From an uncultured Prosthecobacter sp. (GTDB lineage: Bacteria > Verrucomicrobiota > Verrucomicrobiia > Verrucomicrobiales > Verrucomicrobiaceae), in NCBI GenBank assembly GCA_947523045.1, contig CANNUR010000029.1:1-20061 (forward strand): 20,061 nucleotides of DNA. Reading direction: 5' to 3'. Position 1 is the first letter of the stretch. Each line of letters begins with the position of its first letter. Below are positions 2,524-13,913 of this stretch, one piece after another. Both the position numbers and the translations under genes were made by a program. The notes below the pieces were generated by a model. That model did not search any database and was not told the origin of the DNA. It saw nothing but the letters and a program-made list of their open reading frames with translations.

Positions 2524-3744
2524 ATGACCTTGTTTCGCCGCTTCCTGTTGCTTCTGCCCTATTTTGTTGCCTCCTCCCTTGCCGCGCAGTCGGCAGCATC
2601 GCGTCCCGTGGTTGTTGATGCCGGCGCGCATCCGAACCTGCAGGCGGCCATCGACGCTCTGCCGGCGACGGGGGGGCTGGTGCGCCTCCCGCCGGGGGAA
2701 TACCGTCTGCGCGAACCGCTGCGTGTGAAAACCGCGGAAACGCGGATTGAGGGTGCCGGTGCGGCCACCCACCTGATCAACGACAACACCGAGGGCCAGC
2801 CGGCGTTGATCCTGCGGCCGGCGGATTTGGACAGCAATAAAAAGGCCACGCTTTGGCGGGTGCAGCTCGCCAACTTCCGCGTCAGCGGCCAGGAGAAGAG
2901 CGGCGACGGCATCTTCGCCGAGGGCATTCAGGAAATTTACTTCGAGGGCATGTCGGTCGATCACCACGGCGGTCATGGCATCCACATGATCAACTGCACC
3001 GAAGATCCGCGCGTGGCCGACTGCATCTTCACCTACAACAAGGCGGCGGGCGTACGCATCGACGGCGGACATGACATCGTTGTCAACGCCTGCCACTTCG
3101 AGGAAAACCTCGATGCCCTGCACTGCGTCGATGCCTTCAACCTGTGCATGAACGGCAACAACGTCGACGATCACATCCGCCATGGCGTCGTCATCGAGAA
3201 CACGTATGGGTCGGTGCTGAGCGGCAACATGATCGAGGAGTGTTCGGGCACGGCGGTCATCCTCGACCGCGACTGCTACGGCATCACCCTCAGCGCGAAC
3301 GTCATTGCCCATCATTTGGAGGGCGGCATTGACCTGCGCGACGCCCACGGCTGTGCGATCAGCGCCAACACCTTCACCATCGCCCACAAGTTCAGCGTGC
3401 GGGTGGGGCCGGATTCCGGCCGGCTGACGATCACCGGCAACAACTTTTGCAACACCTGGATCGGCGCTGGCGACAAACGGCCGGCCGAGGCGAAGACGCC
3501 GATGGGCATTGACGAGGGCACAGGCGTGCTCATCGAGAAGGGGGCGTCCCACCTCAGCATCACGGGCAACAGCTTCAGCGGTCTGTCCGGGGCGGCGGTG
3601 TGGAGCCGCGGCACCTGTCGGGCCGTGCTGGTGAGCGCCAACACCCTGACCGACTGCGGGCGCAAGCTGCCGGCGGGTGCCGCCTGGATCGATCTGCCGG
3701 AAGCGGCGGCCAGCCTGGTCAAGGACAATCTCGAGGACCGCTGA
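2524..3744 (+). CDS. Secreted right-handed parallel beta-helix protein
   Basis: A 406-residue exported protein. A signal peptide is visible (FRRFLLLLPYFVASSLAA, cleavage near residue 21). It is followed by a cap segment typical of pectate-lyase-3-like folds, with VDAGAHPNLQAAIDAL and a GGLVRLPPGEYRL strand around residues 31-62. The rest shows repeated beta-helix coils, each with an Asn-bearing turn: LSGNMIEE, LSANVIAH, ISANTFTI, ITGNNFCN, ITGNSFSG, VSANTLTD. These proteins usually bind or cleave polysaccharides, but no catalytic residues can be assigned by eye, so lyase, epimerase or non-enzymatic roles are all open. It follows the prolyl isomerase by 27 bases on the same strand. The nearby uxaC might hint at uronate-containing glycans, but that is weak inference. 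Confidence 0.8.
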   Translation: MTLFRRFLLLLPYFVASSLAAQSAASRPVVVDAGAHPNLQAAIDALPATGGLVRLPPGEYRLREPLRVKTAETRIEGAGAATHLINDNTEGQPALILRPADLDSNKKATLWRVQLANFRVSGQEKSGDGIFAEGIQEIYFEGMSVDHHGGHGIHMINCTEDPRVADCIFTYNKAAGVRIDGGHDIVVNACHFEENLDALHCVDAFNLCMNGNNVDDHIRHGVVIENTYGSVLSGNMIEECSGTAVILDRDCYGITLSANVIAHHLEGGIDLRDAHGCAISANTFTIAHKFSVRVGPDSGRLTITGNNFCNTWIGAGDKRPAEAKTPMGIDEGTGVLIEKGASHLSITGNSFSGLSGAAVWSRGTCRAVLVSANTLTDCGRKLPAGAAWIDLPEAAASLVKDNLEDR

Positions 3745-6511: not shown

Positions 6512-6541
6512 AAACGGCTTTCCCGTGCGGGAAAGCCGTTT
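6512..6541. terminator. Strong hairpin terminator between convergent genes
   Basis: A perfect 13-bp stem (AAACGGCTTTCCC at 6512-6524 and GGGAAAGCCGTTT at 6529-6541) encloses a four-base GTGC loop. It is followed on the plus strand by TGTTTT, as in a Rho-independent terminator for the lipoprotein gene. On the minus strand the stem ends in only three T residues, so it would stop the prepilin-like operon less efficiently; that operon ends just 16 bases away, at 6557. Confidence 0.85.
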
Positions 6542-6556: not shown

Positions 6557-7225
6557 TCAGCGCCGTTCATCGGTCGCCTCGCCGGAGCCGGCGGGATCGA
6601 GAAAAAACAGGTGACGCAGGCGACCTCCGGCGTCGGCAAACAGGATCAGCGTGCCATCGCCGGCTTCATCGAAGGGCAGGCGACCGAGCGCATGTCCCGC
6701 GTGCTCCAGCAGCGGCTGGGGCTGTTCAAGGCTCAAGGATTCAACCCGGAGTCGGCGGCAGCGGAGTTCGCGACCGGCCACCTGCAGATCCAGTTGCTCC
6801 AGGGGCGTGGTCTGCCACACCCGCAGTCGGCGTCGTGCCAGCGGGTTGGGGGGCGGCTGGACAAGAACATGGCTGGCCAGTTGCGGCGGTGTCTCCGTGG
6901 CGCGTGAAGGCTCGATCACGGCGACCACGGTCTGGACATCTCCCGGCTGCAGTTCCAGCGGCAGAACGACGCGGCCAAGCCGTGGGTGGAGGAATTCGAT
7001 GCGGCAGAAGCCGGCCGCGAGTTCGAGCCGGCCGCTGGCCTCGCCACTGCGATAGCCTCGGGACTGCAGCAGTTCGTCATTGAGACGCACCGTCAGGGAT
7101 TCTGCGGCTCCGGTGGCGTTGACAAAGCGCAGGCTGGCTGTTGGCGGCTCCTGGGTGGCCAGCAGGGTGGCGGCAAGCAGACAGGCCACGCTAGAGCTGG
7201 CGTGAGCGAGTGAGGTGGATTTCAT
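6557..7225 (-). CDS. Secreted protein of unknown function, last gene of the prepilin-like operon
   Basis: A 222-residue protein that starts at ATG 7225, inside the end of the preceding gene (35-base overlap in another frame). The same frame is open further upstream, but only as a shadow of that gene. It has a signal peptide-like beginning (MKSTSLAHASSSVACLLAATLLA). A first beta-rich domain (about 31-106) contains SLRFVNATG, ESLTVRLNDELL and GDVQTVVAVIEP; a second beta-rich segment (about 133-212) contains LRVWQTTPLEQLDL and GTLILFADAGGRLRHLFFLD. The first part loosely recalls DUF4397- or AlgF-like surface domains, without firm identification. Its tight overlap with the GspK-like gene implies co-translation and a shared role, perhaps as a partner of the pilin-like complex. 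The function is unknown. Confidence 0.7.
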   Translation of the reverse strand: MKSTSLAHASSSVACLLAATLLATQEPPTASLRFVNATGAAESLTVRLNDELLQSRGYRSGEASGRLELAAGFCRIEFLHPRLGRVVLPLELQPGDVQTVVAVIEPSRATETPPQLASHVLVQPPPNPLARRRLRVWQTTPLEQLDLQVAGRELRCRRLRVESLSLEQPQPLLEHAGHALGRLPFDEAGDGTLILFADAGGRLRHLFFLDPAGSGEATDERR

Positions 7226-10193
7226 GGCGGAGAATCGAGCCGTCGGCAGCACGCACGGGTTCAAGAAAGACGTCGCAACTGCGTGAGCGGGTGGCGAGTA
7301 CCCGCAGGTCCCCCTGCCGTGTGAGGCGGTAACATTGACCGGTGATGACGACGCGAAAGTGGCGGCTGCGCACCGTGGAGCCGTTGAACAGGCGGGCAAA
7401 CACCTCTTCAGCGGCGGCGTCATTCCATTCGGGCGTGACCTGATGCTCGCCAGCTCGCTCAGTTTGCCCCAAAAGCGGTTCACCATCGTCACGCAGCAGG
7501 CGTTCGGGCAGTTCGGAAACGGACAGGAAGGGGCGGTGCCGCAGGATGGCATCAGCGATTAAGTCAGCCTGTTCATGAATTGAGGGTGGGTCGAGGCGCC
7601 TAGGTGCGGAGGCGGGATCCATGATCAGGCCGCCTGCGGCGAGTGCGCGCAGGCTGTCGCGGGTGGCGGTGTTGAGGTTGAGGTGGCCATCGATGCGGAT
7701 GAAGTCGCCTTCGCGCTGCGCCGGGTCCTCACTGAAGGGCTGGCCGCAGTGGAAAAGGTCGAGCAATGCCGTGGCGCAGAAACGCCGATCCGGCGGCTGC
7801 CCCTCGATGGGCGTGTCGTAGGCCGGTCGAAAGCGCAGGTGTTCGGGCCGGCCGATGCGCAGGCTGTGGCCACCGCAAAACTTGGCCGAGGGCCGGGCCG
7901 CCGAGGTCAGGTTGGCAGCGGCGCGGAAGGAGGGGGTGTCAAACTCGCCGCCGCCGTTGGCATCCCACTGGATGGGATCGAAGACGTGACCGAGTTCGCT
8001 GAGGCTGAACAGCCGGCCCTGGTTGGAGAGGTGCTGGACGTGCGTGTGTGGCTCGGCGGGCAGGTGTGGCAGTTCATCGGGGTTGCGGTCGAACCCGCCG
8101 ATTCGCTCGCTGCGCGCCGAAGTTGTGTGGCCGCCGTCGGGCCAGAGGTGGGGCAGGCATTCGCGGTGAAAGGCGCCGTCAGCGACGTTGTAGCGCCGGT
8201 TGCGCGAGCCCGGGCTGGAGCCATTCTCATAGTTCACCTGGTCCTGGGGATGGTCGATGAAGAAGGCGGCGCGCGGATCGCCGAGGTTGTCGGCATAGCG
8301 ACCGCTGCCAAAGCCTTCCGAATGGGACATGCCGGGCAGGGTGGTGCTGAAGCGCTGGCGCCGGCTGCCGGTGTCGAGGCCGAACCAGGCCGGTCGGTCG
8401 AGGGGGTGCAGGGGTTGATCGACCAACACCAGGGGGTCGTCGCCCTGACCGAAGCGCAGGCGGTAGCGGCTCTGGCGGTCGCGGCCATCGTCGGGGCCGG
8501 TGTAGTCGACGCGGCGGGTGAGCAGGCTGGCCGGACCGGCGCGCAGTTTGAAGGTGACCGGTTCGAACACGACCACGGCGAACGCGGCCGGTGCCAGATC
8601 GACGGGGCGGGCGGCATGCCACCACTGGCCGTCTTCCGAGATGGGATGGCCGCGGCAGACAAGGCCGTCGGGGCTGATGCCGGCCAGAAGTTCGTCGATC
8701 GGGTAAAGACCGGCGCCGGCGGTGAGCTGGCCGCGGCATTCGAAGGCGGCTTGGACACGGCCACGAATCGGCCACTGGCTGAGGTTCCAGAGTTCGAGAT
8801 AGGTGGTGATGGAAAACTCGATGAAGCGATCGTTGCCTTCGGTGTAGGTGCGCTCAAAGCGGTAGCGCTGCCATTGCTCGCTGACGAGTGGGTGGGCGTC
8901 CGTGCCACGGTAGGCGTCCTCAACCAGGGTGGGATAGGGGTCGCGATCGGCGTAGTCGAGCAAGCCGGCCGCCAGGCATTGGAGGTAGTTGAAATCGCGC
9001 TCGGCTTCGCTGGCGCCGAGGGGGTAGCCGCCGCGGCGACGGGAAAAGTGCGGCAGATGCCGGCGGATGTGGTTGGCAATCTCCGCCACTGCCTGCCGCG
9101 CCAGGGCGGGCCGTTCGGAGGGGGTGGCGCGCTCCAGGGCGCCGAGCAGGCGGTTGAGGTTGTGTTTGTCGACTGGTGCGGCGGCGAGGGCAAAGGCGGG
9201 ATCGGGCGGTATGAGTGCCCGCTCGTGGTAAGCAGCGAGGCGGTGGCAGGTTTGCTCCTCGAGCGCCCGCCAGGCGGGATCCTGCAGGCGACCGCTCAAT
9301 GGGTCACGCGCCAGGGCCAGCGCGGCCGGTTGCCCCGGCCAGTTGTCGTCGGGCTGCAGCAGGACCTGCTTCCAGAGTTCGGGTGACAGCAGCAGGCGAC
9401 GTTGGCGCAGGAGTTGGCGACCGAGGTCGGAGTGGTCGTCGGCAGCGGTCGGATCGAGCAGGGTGAACAGGGCGGCCTGGTCGAGCGCACCCGCCCGGCT
9501 GAGGTTGAGGCCCGGTACCGCGTGGGGGGCAGGCGACTCTCGGCGGTGGCGGACGTTCGGGCCATCCAGATTGCCGGCATGCCCGAGGTTGAGCCGGGAC
9601 TGCAGGTCCTCGAGGTGAAAGCAGTAGCGTGCGAGCAGCGTTTCGGTGTCGCCCTCCGGCAGCTTGAGATTTTCCCACCAGAGCGGCGGCGGCAGTTGGC
9701 CGGGGCTGGCGACGCCATGGCGGGTCAGGGCGAGCTGTTCCTCGTCGGTGGGGGACTGCAGTGCGGCGGGCCAGTCGTCGTCGTCGGGCGCCTGCAGCCG
9801 GTCACTCGCTCCCGGCGCGCGGCAGCCGGAAACGAGGGGCTGGTACTGCCACTGACGGGCAACCGGGTCGTGGTTGGCTGCCAGCAGGACTGGCAGGCGC
9901 GCGGGTTCATCGGCCGAGGCGACGGCGAAAAGCACGCCGGTTTCATCGCGCAGGCTGTGGTTGAGTCGCGTTACGGCCTGGGCCAGTCCCGCTTGGACGG
10001 CGAGATCGGCCTGGACGATGGCGTCGTAGGCGCTGGCAACCCGGCGTTCGCGCAGGGCCAGCGTCAGCAGACCTGTGACGATGAGCGTCAGGGTGGCGAG
10101 CAGCAGCAGCGTCGCCACCAGGGCAAAGCCACGGCCAGCTGCCTTAGCGCGCGGCAAGGCACAGGATGTAGGTGCGGACGTCACGATCGTCAT
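7191..10193 (-). CDS. Verru_Chthon cassette protein A-like, GspK-like giant prepilin-type protein
   Basis: A protein of about 1000 residues. The N-terminus has a short basic leader ending ...AKAAGRG (cut after Gly22) and then FALVATLLLLATLTLIVTGLL, a class III prepilin-type hydrophobic helix. Position +5 of the mature protein is Ala rather than the usual Glu, as in GspK, the tip pseudopilin of type II secretion. Near residues 838-852 is LNLNTATRDSLRALAAGG, like the 'NxNTAs...LxaL' helical segment of GspK. The rest is a large, Arg/Pro-rich extracytoplasmic region without a domain I can name. It matches my memory of the Verrucomicrobia cassette A family (TIGR02600). ATG 10193 is chosen; it overlaps the end of the GspJ-like gene by 50 bases, and later GTG or TTG starts are possible. 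Confidence 0.8.
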   Translation of the reverse strand: MTIVTSAPTSCALPRAKAAGRGFALVATLLLLATLTLIVTGLLTLALRERRVASAYDAIVQADLAVQAGLAQAVTRLNHSLRDETGVLFAVASADEPARLPVLLAANHDPVARQWQYQPLVSGCRAPGASDRLQAPDDDDWPAALQSPTDEEQLALTRHGVASPGQLPPPLWWENLKLPEGDTETLLARYCFHLEDLQSRLNLGHAGNLDGPNVRHRRESPAPHAVPGLNLSRAGALDQAALFTLLDPTAADDHSDLGRQLLRQRRLLLSPELWKQVLLQPDDNWPGQPAALALARDPLSGRLQDPAWRALEEQTCHRLAAYHERALIPPDPAFALAAAPVDKHNLNRLLGALERATPSERPALARQAVAEIANHIRRHLPHFSRRRGGYPLGASEAERDFNYLQCLAAGLLDYADRDPYPTLVEDAYRGTDAHPLVSEQWQRYRFERTYTEGNDRFIEFSITTYLELWNLSQWPIRGRVQAAFECRGQLTAGAGLYPIDELLAGISPDGLVCRGHPISEDGQWWHAARPVDLAPAAFAVVVFEPVTFKLRAGPASLLTRRVDYTGPDDGRDRQSRYRLRFGQGDDPLVLVDQPLHPLDRPAWFGLDTGSRRQRFSTTLPGMSHSEGFGSGRYADNLGDPRAAFFIDHPQDQVNYENGSSPGSRNRRYNVADGAFHRECLPHLWPDGGHTTSARSERIGGFDRNPDELPHLPAEPHTHVQHLSNQGRLFSLSELGHVFDPIQWDANGGGEFDTPSFRAAANLTSAARPSAKFCGGHSLRIGRPEHLRFRPAYDTPIEGQPPDRRFCATALLDLFHCGQPFSEDPAQREGDFIRIDGHLNLNTATRDSLRALAAGGLIMDPASAPRRLDPPSIHEQADLIADAILRHRPFLSVSELPERLLRDDGEPLLGQTERAGEHQVTPEWNDAAAEEVFARLFNGSTVRSRHFRVVITGQCYRLTRQGDLRVLATRSRSCDVFLEPVRAADGSILRHEIHLTRSRQL

Positions 10194-10968
10194 TGGGGTC
10201 GTCGGGCGTGTTCCGGTGCAGCCACTGCGCGCGGGCGCCCTCGCCACGCCAATCGGCCTCATCCTGCAACCGATGGGTCATGGCGCGGTGGGTGACACGC
10301 AGGGTCAGATGCAGTGGGGCTGGCTTCGGGGGGTGGGTGGCATCTGGAACCGATGAAGTTTGTGGGAGGGCCAAAAAGCGGACCACGTCATGAGCCAGAG
10401 GTTCCAGTTCTTCCGATCCCGGGCGCTGTGACGGCCAGTCGTCCTCCGACAGCAGCGGTTGGCCTGCAAGCTGTTGCGCGCGCAGGCGCCGGTAGGTTTC
10501 TGCCGGGTCAAATACCCGGCGCACCAGCTTTGGACTGCTGTGACGGCCCTCGACGGAGGTGGTGCCGCCGTCAGGCGTGAAAACGACCGCGTACAGCACG
10601 AGGCAGAGGTCGCCGCCGGCATCGACGGCGGTCCGGTGCCGGACTGGCTCCGTGCGCAGGAAGGCCAGCCGGCTGGAGGCCCCGGGATGGTCCGGTGTCT
10701 CGACCCAATAGCCGGGCCAAGCCTGGGACATCGAGTCGCTGTGCGGCAGGCAAGCCAGGCTCTGCCAGTCGTCCTGCAGCAGGCGCAGGGCGGTGCGGGC
10801 TTCGCGCTCCATGCCGAGGTCGCCGATCTGTCGATGCCAGGCTTCGGTCGCAGCGCTGACGGCTTCGAGCAGGGCGAGGACCAGTACCGCCGCGGCGGTC
10901 ATGGCGCCGAGCAGTTCGATCAGGCTGGTGCCTCGGTGGCCTAGGTCAGGGCAGGGCAAGGGTGACAT
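10144..10968 (-). CDS. Verru_Chthon cassette protein C-like, GspJ-like prepilin-type protein
   Basis: A 274-residue prepilin-like protein. A short leader (MSPLPCPDLGHRG) is followed by a cleavage/methylation site, G|TSLIELLGAM, with Glu at +5, and then a hydrophobic helix to about residue 40. After it come the amphipathic 'EAVSAATEAWHRQIGDLGMEREARTAL' stretch and a beta-rich globular part (RLAFLRTEP, GDLCLVLYAVVF, KLVRRVFDP). This resembles GspJ/PulJ pseudopilins and, from memory, TIGR02599. ATG 10968 is preferred because the frame upstream only shadows the previous gene and carries no leader. It overlaps the GspI-like gene by 23 bases and the GspK-like gene by 50 bases, so all are likely translated together. 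It would be processed by a prepilin peptidase that is not in this window. Confidence 0.83.
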   Translation of the reverse strand: MSPLPCPDLGHRGTSLIELLGAMTAAAVLVLALLEAVSAATEAWHRQIGDLGMEREARTALRLLQDDWQSLACLPHSDSMSQAWPGYWVETPDHPGASSRLAFLRTEPVRHRTAVDAGGDLCLVLYAVVFTPDGGTTSVEGRHSSPKLVRRVFDPAETYRRLRAQQLAGQPLLSEDDWPSQRPGSEELEPLAHDVVRFLALPQTSSVPDATHPPKPAPLHLTLRVTHRAMTHRLQDEADWRGEGARAQWLHRNTPDDPNDDRDVRTYILCLAAR

Positions 10969-11395
10969 AACTGCGGACCTGGCGTCGGCCGGCCGGTGCA
11001 CTGGCGGGGGATTCCACCCGAATCCGCAATCGGGCGGCGCCTGGCTGCGGGCTCGCGGTGGGTGGCAACCGGTCGATACGGGCGAAATGGGCGGCCGTGG
11101 GCAGGGCGGAGCCGTTGGCATAGGCGGCTTCGGTGGCCTCAGCCTGGTCGAGCAGGCTCAGCAACGGTTGCAGTGTCTGATCCACCAGCAGGATCCCGGG
11201 CGAAGACGAGTCGGACTGCCAGTCGGTCGCCAACCGCTGTGCAAGCAAGCCCGCCGCGGTCTGGCATCGACAGTCGAGTGCCGTTTTCAGGGCGCCTGCC
11301 AGCAGGCCGATCACCGCCAGCACGGCGCTGGAGGCAACGGCGAGAGCGAGCAGGGTTTCCGCGAGGCTGAAGCCGCGGTTGGAGGCAGGGGTCAT
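10946..11395 (-). CDS. Verru_Chthon cassette protein B-like, GspI-like prepilin-type protein
   Basis: A 149-residue prepilin-like protein with a very short leader (MTPASNRG). The processing site is G|FSLAETLLALAVASSAVLAVIGLLAG, with Glu at mature position +5. The small globular part ends in strands (GAARLRIRVES, RRQVRSYVTLALP), a pattern seen in GspI/PulI pseudopilins and, from memory, in TIGR02598. Its ATG overlaps the stop of the preceding GspH-like gene as ATGA (11392-11395), a sign of translational coupling. It is predicted to insert into the inner membrane as a prepilin and to be cleaved and N-methylated before assembly with the neighbouring proteins. Assembly partners are inferred from gene order. 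Confidence 0.85.
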   Translation of the reverse strand: MTPASNRGFSLAETLLALAVASSAVLAVIGLLAGALKTALDCRCQTAAGLLAQRLATDWQSDSSSPGILLVDQTLQPLLSLLDQAEATEAAYANGSALPTAAHFARIDRLPPTASPQPGAARLRIRVESPASAPAGRRQVRSYVTLALP

Positions 11396-12030
11396 GGCAG
11401 GAGTAGGGCGTTGCCGGTGTGCCGGTGCAGAAGGAGCCAGCGACAGGCCTCGGGTCCTGGGCCGTGTTGCGGGCGGGGGAGGCCGTGCAGGATGTCACCT
11501 TCGGTCAGCGCCAACAGAGGACGGCCGGGCGTGGGGTGCAGGAGCTGACCGAGCTTGCCAAAGCCGAGGCAGGGCAATGGCACCTGAGTGCCGGCAAGTT
11601 GCACAGGTTGCAGGGCAGTGGCATCGGTCAACAGGTTACGACCGGCCTCCGGGCTTGCCGGAGCAGCGAGGGAAAACACCTGGCCAGGTGGCAGCCGACT
11701 CCAGTTGCCGACCGGCTGCAGACGGCTTTCGCCATTCACATCAGGGATGCGTGCACATCGCGCGTAGGCGCGGAAGGCGTCGGCGCCGACAGTGTCAAAG
11801 GTGAGCCAGACCTCTTCTTGTCCAGCGAGGGCCTGTGCCCGCGCCTCATCGAGGTCGGCGGCAAGTTGTTGGATGGCGCTGAGGCCGCGCCAACTCGCCA
11901 ATGTCGTCAGAGCCCCACCCGTCAGGGCGGTCAGTGTGGCAAGCAGCGTCAACGTCACCAAGACCTCGAGCAAGCTCAGGGCGGTTGGCTCGGGCAAACC
12001 CGAGGTCGATGAGTTCGACAAACGCTGCAT
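11392..12030 (-). CDS. Verru_Chthon cassette protein D-like, GspH-like prepilin-type protein
   Basis: A 212-residue prepilin-like protein and the first gene of the operon. The ATG at 12030 is chosen over an upstream in-frame TTG (12054) because a GGAGG sits five bases before it. The leader MQRLSNSSTSGLPEPTA is followed by LSLLEVLVTLTLLATLTALTGG, with Glu at +5. The residue before the cut is Ala17, not the usual Gly. After the helix comes the GspH-like pattern AIQQLAADLDEARAQALAGQEEVWLTFD, then a beta-rich region ending RWLLLHRHTGNALLLP. It matches GspH/FimT-type minor pseudopilins and, from memory, TIGR02596. Processing efficiency may be lower because of the Ala. Confidence 0.82.
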   Translation of the reverse strand: MQRLSNSSTSGLPEPTALSLLEVLVTLTLLATLTALTGGALTTLASWRGLSAIQQLAADLDEARAQALAGQEEVWLTFDTVGADAFRAYARCARIPDVNGESRLQPVGNWSRLPPGQVFSLAAPASPEAGRNLLTDATALQPVQLAGTQVPLPCLGFGKLGQLLHPTPGRPLLALTEGDILHGLPRPQHGPGPEACRWLLLHRHTGNALLLP

Positions 12031-12235: not shown

Positions 12236-13324
12236 TCAGATGTGAATCGGCAGAGTGAAGGCAAAGATGGCACCGCCCACCGGTGCGTTGCGGGCGCTGA
12301 TGTGGCCGCCGTGTTCTTCGATGATTTGTCGGCAGATCGACAGCCCCAGGCCGGTGCCGTGGCTTTTGCCGTGAGGGTTGAAGGGCTCGAAGAGTCTTTC
12401 AAGGACGGCCTCGGCGATGCCGGGGCCGCTGTCCTGAATTTCGGTGAGCACTTCGTGAGCGCGTGCTTCGACACGCAGGCGCAGGCGGCCGCCGCCCTCC
12501 ATGGCATCGCTAGCATTGCCTGTCAGATTGGCGAGCACGCGGCGCAGACGCCGGGGGTCGGCCTGGAGGGTGGCCTCGGGCAGGTCGCCGGCGATGGTCA
12601 CCTCGATCTGCTTGAGGTCGAGGGAGGGTCGCAATTGGGCGAGGGTGTCGAGCAGGAACTGGCGGTAGTCGAGGGCCTGGGGCCGGCTGGCGCCGCCCTG
12701 GGTGAACTCGAGGATTTGGGCGACAAGGTCGTTGATGCGCTCGACCTGCGCGCGGATCTGGCCGGGAGCCTGTGAGGTGAGGTCGGCGGGCAGGCCGGGG
12801 GTGGCGATCAGTTCGGCATTGAGGCTGATGATCTGCAGCGGGTTTTTGAGATCATGGATGATCGAGCGTGCGAACTGGCCGATGACAGAGAGTCGCTCGG
12901 CCTGCACGATCTCATCGAGGAAGACGCGGTTGAAGTCGCGCAGGCGGTGGCTGATGAGCTGAAGCAGGCGCATCGCAAGGCCCGGCGTGCGCTGGATGAG
13001 TTTGAGCATCGCGTCGCGCTCAAGGAAATGCAGCACGCTGGGCTCGGTCGCGGCGGCGCTCGCCGAGCGATTGTGGTTTTCGATGACCGCCATTTCGCCA
13101 AACAGTTCGCCGGGGCCGAGGCGTGAGAACACGCGATGCCCCTGGCCGAGCATCTGGCCGGAGATCTCCACCTGGCCCGACTCGATGAGGTAGAGACCGT
13201 CGCCGGATTCTCCCTCCCGGAACACCGTTGCGCCGGCTTGCAGGTGCCGGGTCTCGGCGAGCGCGGCGAGGGCTTCCGGTTGTTCGGGCCAGAGGGCACT
13301 GAACATCGTTGGAGCTGCGGGCAT
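12236..13324 (-). CDS. Soluble orphan histidine kinase with cyclic-nucleotide-type sensor domain
   Basis: About 362 residues. The N-terminal part (about 9-100) is a cNMP-binding/Crp-type beta-barrel: FREGESGDGLYLIESGQVEI, then GELFGEMAVIENHNRSASAAA, where FGE and the Arg sit as in the phosphate-binding cassette. A linking helix leads to the H box SIIHDLKNPL with His157, then the N box NLTGNASDAM, G1 DSGPGI, F box LFEPFNPHGKS and G2 HGTGLGLSI. No membrane segment is present, so it should sense a cytoplasmic ligand and autophosphorylate. No response regulator lies beside it. ATG 13324 is chosen; a start at 13411 or 13417 is possible, but it would overlap the divergent peroxiredoxin start. The ligand is unknown. 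The adjacent operon is a speculative target. Confidence 0.85.
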   Translation of the reverse strand: MPAAPTMFSALWPEQPEALAALAETRHLQAGATVFREGESGDGLYLIESGQVEISGQMLGQGHRVFSRLGPGELFGEMAVIENHNRSASAAATEPSVLHFLERDAMLKLIQRTPGLAMRLLQLISHRLRDFNRVFLDEIVQAERLSVIGQFARSIIHDLKNPLQIISLNAELIATPGLPADLTSQAPGQIRAQVERINDLVAQILEFTQGGASRPQALDYRQFLLDTLAQLRPSLDLKQIEVTIAGDLPEATLQADPRRLRRVLANLTGNASDAMEGGGRLRLRVEARAHEVLTEIQDSGPGIAEAVLERLFEPFNPHGKSHGTGLGLSICRQIIEEHGGHISARNAPVGGAIFAFTLPIHI

Positions 13325-13409
13325 GGCCGAGCCTAGGAGGGAGGGATTCCCTGGTAAAGCTCCGTCTGGAGGCGCATCTCTCGCTTTCTTTGCCGCGTAA
13401 TGCTCAATC

Positions 13410-13913
13410 ATGCCCAAATCCGCTCCCGCCCCTTCCCAAAAGCCGTCGCCCGGTCAGCTTGCCCCCGATTTTGACGCGCCGGTCTCCGGTCCCGGCCTGC
13501 CTCCTGGCAGTCGCCTGCGGCTCGCCGACCTGCGCGACCGGCCGGTGGTGCTGTACTTTTACCCGAAGGACGACACCCCGGGCTGCACCCGCCAGGCCTG
13601 CGCGCTGCGCGACGGCTGGCAGCGGCTGTCAAAGCTTGCTCACGTGATCGGTGTCAGCGCCGATTCGATCGCCAGTCACGAGAAGTTTGCGCGCAAGCAC
13701 GAACTGCCGTTTCTGCTGCTGGGCGATACCGATCATGCCGTCGCCGACGCCTACGGCACCTGGGTGGAGAAAAGCATGTATGGTCGCACCTACTTCGGCA
13801 TGGAGCGCACGACCTTCATCATCGGGACCGACGGCCTTGTGCAGGCCGTGTTGCCCAAGGTCAAGCCGGACGCGCATCTGGATCAGGTGCTTGCCGTGCT
13901 CGCGCCGGCCTGA
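13410..13913 (+). CDS. bcp: Thioredoxin-dependent thiol peroxidase, Bcp/PrxQ family
   Basis: A 167-residue cytoplasmic peroxiredoxin that reduces hydrogen peroxide and organic hydroperoxides using thioredoxin. The family signature YFYPKDDTPGCTRQACALRD (residues 49-68) carries the peroxidatic Cys59 and a second Cys64 five residues on, as in the atypical two-cysteine Bcp type. FLLLGDTDHAVADAYGTWVEKSMYG and GMERTTFIIGTDG complete the thioredoxin-like fold. The N-terminus has an extra Pro/Ser-rich dozen residues. It is divergent from the kinase gene and 39 bases upstream of yggS on the same strand, so the two may share a transcript. Confidence 0.95.
   Translation: MPKSAPAPSQKPSPGQLAPDFDAPVSGPGLPPGSRLRLADLRDRPVVLYFYPKDDTPGCTRQACALRDGWQRLSKLAHVIGVSADSIASHEKFARKHELPFLLLGDTDHAVADAYGTWVEKSMYGRTYFGMERTTFIIGTDGLVQAVLPKVKPDAHLDQVLAVLAPA

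Follow-up and report, generated by a model that had tools for sequence, protein, structure and literature searches.

A GspH-I-J-K-like pseudopilin module with an enlarged K-like protein in an uncultured Prosthecobacter

The D-B-C-A-E locus and its conservation

We analyzed a 20,061-nucleotide stretch of contig CANNUR010000029.1 from an uncultured Prosthecobacter sp., referred to as the window, which carries five overlapping genes, D-B-C-A-E, encoding four pilin-like proteins and a small exported-looking partner. An earlier note, made from the sequence alone, had described a cassette of four genes resembling gspH, gspI, gspJ, and gspK of type II secretion systems (T2SS). This observation is confirmed: the four pilin-like genes stand as described, and a conserved fifth gene, E, had been missed even though it lies within the same interval, 6557..12030.

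Gene D: 11392..12030, minus strand; 212 amino acids (aa), prepilin leader A|LSLLE; GspH-like minor pseudopilin
Gene B: 10946..11395, minus strand; 149 aa, leader G|FSLAE; GspI-like minor pseudopilin
Gene C: 10144..10968, minus strand; 274 aa, leader G|TSLIE; GspJ-like minor pseudopilin
Gene A: 7191..10193, minus strand; 1000 aa, leader G|FALVA lacking glutamate at position +5 (Glu5); enlarged GspK-like protein
Gene E: 6557..7225, minus strand; 222 aa, signal-peptide-like start (by eye); exported, beta-domain-like protein

Genes D and B overlap through an ATGA, the B/C and C/A overlaps are longer, and E overlaps the end of A. Reading the sequence directly, we found a hydrophobic helix after each leader of D, B, C, and A, and the +5 residue is Glu in D, B, and C and Ala in A, as had been noted for the first three proteins and the fourth.

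These features recur in 79 related loci of 3.8 to 23 kb each, all from records labeled Verrucomicrobiota except one labeled Blastochloris (L077). The nearest relative among genome contigs, L001, comes from a Prosthecobacter metagenome-assembled genome, in which A is 71% identical over the best segment and is matched across residues 7-1000. An A frame is present in 78 of the 79 loci and its leader motif was detected in 60 of those 78; Glu never occurs at +5 in these 60, where the residues are A (31), M (13), V (6), T (5), I (3), L (1), and S (1). Among the pilin-leader genes within 2.6 kb upstream of A, by contrast, +5 is Glu in 120 and Asp in 2. Because the pattern of leaders and Glu5 is kept among the related loci, it is not a matter of chance. 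The 52 loci with enough upstream DNA have three such genes (25 loci), two (22), one (3), or none (2), and where three Glu5 genes were found upstream, the mature lengths of D, B, and C cluster at approximately 205, 157, and 240 residues. Gene order differs in Brevifollis (L006), which has A-D-B-C-E. Beyond approximately the first 225 positions of the A profile, a single locus matches in each of 24 genomes, all of which were picked for holding such A loci.

Relationships of the pilin-like proteins

To assign D, B, C, and A, reference profiles for GspG, -H, -I, -J, and -K (12 to 18 proteins each) were constructed from the type II pseudopilin operons of relatives and compared using hhalign. Ten relative genomes all hold separate operons of this kind. 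Among 18 operon loci, nine have G-H-I-J-K leaders in order, eight have a partial set in order, and one (L145) has K apart, so the order D-B-C-A corresponds to that of H, I, J, and K in these operons, as had been proposed. The relatives' GspG and GspK were found by family search, and their H, I, and J were assigned by position with weak support from NCBIfam; GspK exceeds the curated cutoff in none of the ten genomes, and nine of the H, I, and J proteins are also under their cutoffs. Profiles of D, B, and C were built from 29 of 80 sets, namely the window and 28 loci with exactly three Glu5 leader genes upstream, and Glu5 in these profiles therefore reflects selection. An initial comparison of A used 26 sequences and was repeated with 61 (the window and 60 loci).

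The expected partner scored best for all four full mature proteins, which supports reading D, B, C, and A as GspH-, -I-, -J-, and -K-like. D scored 79.1 to GspH (next, GspG at 64.7), B scored 54.0 to GspI (next, GspJ at 46.4), C scored 64.2 to GspJ (GspH, GspI, and GspG next at 42 to 44), and A scored 41.7 to GspK (next, GspJ at 35.3). With the first 28 residues removed, three of the four kept their expected partner, with D to H at 28.1 (next 19.0), C to J at 29.2 (next 11.6), and A to GspK at 32.0 (next 20.8); B gave no discrimination (G 15.0, H 14.7, and I 13.6). Once the first 50 residues were removed, the D scores were 19.5 (GspI), 18.9 (GspH), and 12.7 (GspG). In comparison with single Escherichia coli K-12 proteins, C matched GspJ and B matched GspI, D tied between GspG and GspH, and A made no clear choice.

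Matches of D, B, C, and A to NCBIfam are weak, mainly N-terminal, and all under the cutoffs. For example, D reached 21.5 bits to XpsH (below the cutoff), B reached 17.0 bits to TIGR01707 (cutoff, 44.35), and A reached 18.7 bits to the GspK family NF037980 (cutoff, 130), and at an E value of 1 NCBIfam gave neither a gspJ match for C nor a TIGR01708 match for D. Residues 52-170 of D match the Pfam GspH family PF12019 at 20.9 bits against a cutoff of 21. Across 25 C proteins, 19 match TIGR02599, 16 match HpsC, and 13 match gspJ; of 17 A proteins searched at an E value of 0.1, 15 match TIGR02600 and 15 match GspK. PilX_N matches the A protein of the window at 22.7 bits against a cutoff of 25.5 and exceeds that cutoff in three of ten relatives' copies.

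In structural comparison, the predicted fold of C gives a clear match to GspJ, tied with the Thermus pilin TTHA1219, and thus agrees with the assignment of C in the earlier note. The top realignment of the low-confidence predicted model of A, folded from an alignment of 17 of 30 found proteins, is a weak one to GspK. In these comparisons, chain length rather than a sequence match was the basis for treating 9a1f_T as GspK and 9a1f_S as GspJ; sequence search tied K to 3ci0_K and 5vtm_X (a sequence common to 6utu), and with E. coli GspJ it matched no structure chain.

The A protein, at 1000 aa compared with 295 to 307 mature residues in 12 GspK-type proteins of relatives, is indeed enlarged as had been claimed, and its similarity to GspK lies in three collinear segments, listed here together with an inserted domain:

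A residues 1-113: 9855..10193, minus strand; leader and N-terminal helix, matching GspK 1-107
A residues 340-480: 8754..9176, minus strand; weak collinear match to GspK 93-202
A residues about 436-620: 8334..8888, minus strand; beta-sandwich-like inserted domain, predicted better than any other part of A
A residues 830-1000: 7194..7706, minus strand; weak match, collinear with GspK 193-309; includes a conserved NLNTA segment

The N-terminal segment aligns to GspK with a probability of 91 and a score of 45.7, which none of 200 column shuffles reached, and the two weaker segments score 18.5 (reached by 7 of 200 shuffles) and 22.0 (reached by 2 of 200), respectively. Searched against Protein Data Bank sequences, profiles A1, A2, and A3 (the last from the alignment of E described below) found no pilin relative beyond a geopilin N terminus at an E value of 1, and PHROGs at an E value of 0.1 gave no match for E, A, or C.

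Cassettes, gene E, and motor genes in related genomes

The earlier note had also called the module a Verrucomicrobia cassette, a label that in its curated sense refers to the Verru_Chthon families A (TIGR02600), B (TIGR02598), C (TIGR02599), and D (TIGR02596). We withdraw it because all four proteins fall under the cutoffs: D has 13.2 bits against 70, B 26.1 against 51.4, C 13.5 against 256.5, and A 16.2 against 332.3. A resemblance is nonetheless evident in the four pilin-like genes with a giant A, whose profile aligns end to end with six classical A proteins (hhalign probability of 96 over 914 columns in local mode and 99 over 910 columns in global mode). Classical cassettes over the cutoffs occupy 18 loci in one genome (G010) and fewer elsewhere, with none in G005 to G008, and are often ordered A-B-C-D and sometimes D-B-C-A. 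We found no paper on these cassettes among the open-licence papers searched; a term search of PMC1569441 finds V. spinosum in its text, whereas "cassette" and TIGR02596/02600 do not occur, and PMC13274419 describes a verrucomicrobial genome with 67 homologues of a PulG-like pseudopilin.

Two side observations concern the classical families. In 8 of 26 classical-type cassette stretches (L124, L125, L126, L128, L129, L158, L167, and L168), the region immediately upstream of A holds open frames of 581 to 2994 aa, some of them cut by the end of the stretch; these might be candidate substrates of the cassettes' own. Separately, frames of approximately 1150 to 1300 aa match just the N-terminal 60 or so positions of TIGR02600, with 16 in G005 and 10 in G006; such N-terminus-only frames occur in G005, G006, G008, and others, including L092, L099, and L130 to L133.

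Gene E sets the module apart from the classical cassettes. An E-like gene was detected in 60 of the 79 loci (E value of 1e-3), or 58 of the 73 loci with at least 700 nucleotides after A, and in 33 of the 60 listed cases it starts 16 nucleotides before the end of the A frame. A genome-wide search confined E to the A locus in all of ten genomes, six of which also hold classical cassettes without E beside them, and found a tandem second copy in two. We rely on this search because the ten cassette stretches in which no E was found cover little past the last cassette gene (four end inside A, and the rest barely pass that gene). At L003 and L004, tandem pairs of E-like genes follow A. The alignment of E (A3) comprises 24 of 63 E-like proteins, the 63 being 62 from the loci and one from the window. 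Its matches are weak and mainly to PEGA and DUF4397, each in seven of the 24 members. Identification of E as PilY1 or GspL was considered and rejected, as there was no such match.

The claimed detachment of the module from gspG, the ATPase, and the secretin holds within the window. A tblastn search with the relatives' GspE, GspF, GspD, and GspG found no match there, and a Pfam scan of ten other open reading frames of the window, the sole search for prepilin peptidase, found no GspE, GspF, GspD, or GspG. A secreted substrate linked to the module was likewise sought, and none was seen in the window. The ten relative genomes all carry GspE-family ATPases, secretins, GspG, and an A24 peptidase. 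Among the 79 loci, GspE- and GspF-like genes lie near the module in L056 alone, and these belong to a separate tandem-ATPase type; approximately 5 kb separates them from the cassette, an interval holding genes that look from their sequence like purA and carA. This proximity is no proof of association, because approximately 0.4 such cases in 79 are expected by chance (79 loci x 20 kb / 4 Mb).

Nine genomes were read at the tandem-ATPase locus (L185 and L187 to L194), which encodes two GspE/PilB-like ATPases in tandem. In eight of them, the ATPase genes are neighbored by a gene for a GspF/PilC-like protein and by one for a Glu5 pilin; in G009, the GspF search was negative and there was no convincing pilin. 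The stretches read show no clear minor-pilin set, the leader motif giving other, doubtful matches.

Among the remaining features of the window, a terminator-like stem lies directly 3' of E, identified by a consensus scan and on its own no evidence of function:

Terminator-like stem: 6512..6541; 13 pairs

Just upstream of D, across a 205-bp gap and on the same strand, a histidine kinase with a cyclic-nucleotide-binding domain is encoded at 12236-13417. The kinase, a BCP, and a small lipoprotein-like gene (by eye) also surround the cassette in L001. A right-handed beta-helix protein at 2524-3744 has no visible relation to the module, and Rfam at gathering scores gave no match in the window.

Explanations for the module

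We consider it likely that D-B-C-A-E is an operon-like module whose four pilin-like proteins are homologous to GspH, GspI, GspJ, and GspK and serve to start and cap a type IV filament. The direct basis consists of gene order, the leaders, the Glu5 pattern, profile matches, conservation at a single locus, and the linkage of E; the GspJ-like fold of C is a prediction that points the same way. We infer the processing, assembly, and tip location of the proteins, a motor in trans, and the functions of A and E, which might combine as follows. Most likely, D, B, C, and A would be cut by the prepilin peptidase of the cell. In the inner membrane, B, C, and A would form an I-J-K-like trimer with A outermost and D as an H-like adaptor below, and this complex would prime and then top a type IV filament that draws its motor, major pilin, and secretin from genes at other sites. 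Insertions, among them a predicted beta-sandwich, may have brought A to its 1000 residues, and A would travel outward as the working head. For E, export and a partnership with A are both probable, its role being a guess from linkage.

Priming and capping of a fiber with A exposed is proposed by analogy with two systems. The T2SS tip contains XcpU, -V, and -W and is topped by XcpX (GspK) (PMC6211770), and in Myxococcus, minor pilins and PilY1 prime the pilus and remain at its tip (PMC7541494). The module resembles the T2SS set in gene order, leaders, Glu5 pattern, best profile partners, and the predicted fold of C, but it stands apart from a motor, its A is more than three times the size of the relatives' GspK, it has the extra gene E, and it falls below curated cutoffs. 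With the Myxococcus system it shares minor pilins combined with a large priming or tip protein, whereas A carries the pilin leader and the large part in a single fused chain, and E has no PilY1-like match. The missing Glu5 of A is no hallmark of GspK, because PilX lacks Glu5 as well as GspK (PMC7541494).

Another explanation is a type IVa minor-pilin set (FimU-PilV-PilW-PilX) that primes a true type IV pilus and not a type II-like fiber, A being its enlarged PilX. We regard this as possible but doubtful, since B and C lie closer to GspI and GspJ than to the Ppd proteins of E. coli and D lies closer to GspG/GspH than to PpdA. No PilY1-like protein was found beside A: E offers weak matches, mainly to PEGA and DUF4397, and Pfam gave no candidate in the ten neighbors scanned. 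Somewhat less probable is a dedicated head for the T2SS of the host itself, one that would alternate with the resident H-I-J-K so that certain proteins are exported. T2SS minor pseudopilins are the closest sequence relatives and type II-type pseudopilin operons occur in 10 of 10 relative genomes; however, these operons already have minor pseudopilins of their own, and the window has no obvious linked substrate of the kind suggested by the large proteins next to A in some classical cassettes.

We give about the same low credence to an ordinary but divergent Verru_Chthon cassette with no special role. The long alignment of A to its classical counterparts speaks for it, as do some G010 cassettes with the order D-B-C-A and A frames of 984 to 1058 aa, but the subthreshold scores of all four proteins, the single locus per genome compared with up to 18 classical loci in G010, and the restriction of E to window-type loci argue otherwise. 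An arrangement like that of HpsA and the pseudopilins HpsB-D of filamentous cyanobacteria, thought to act together with a pilus motor, would lend the pseudopilins to such a motor for polysaccharide export. The many C relatives that match HpsC do so with a best E value of 1e-11, but the C protein of the window has no HpsC match at an E value of 0.1 and Pfam found no glycosyltransferase among the ten neighboring window proteins scanned, making this the least probable explanation and an improbable one overall.

A more specific version of the preferred tip-complex reading is tentative and, in our view, rather unlikely as it stands: the one-per-genome module may be a tip complex acting in trans for the Verrucomicrobiales tandem-ATPase filament, with A as a GspK/PilX-type protein whose inserted head replaces PilY1 and E as its exported partner. 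It fits because nine genomes hold both loci and the ATPase locus has no clear minor-pilin set, which suggests that the module serves the tandem-ATPase machine. If the tip-complex reading is true, the K position, usually the tip, would have been enlarged into a giant displayed protein, and the once-per-genome core with its linked partner would offer a clean genetic target. The many Verrucomicrobia "cassette" proteins of unknown function could then be read as interchangeable heads of type IV filaments.
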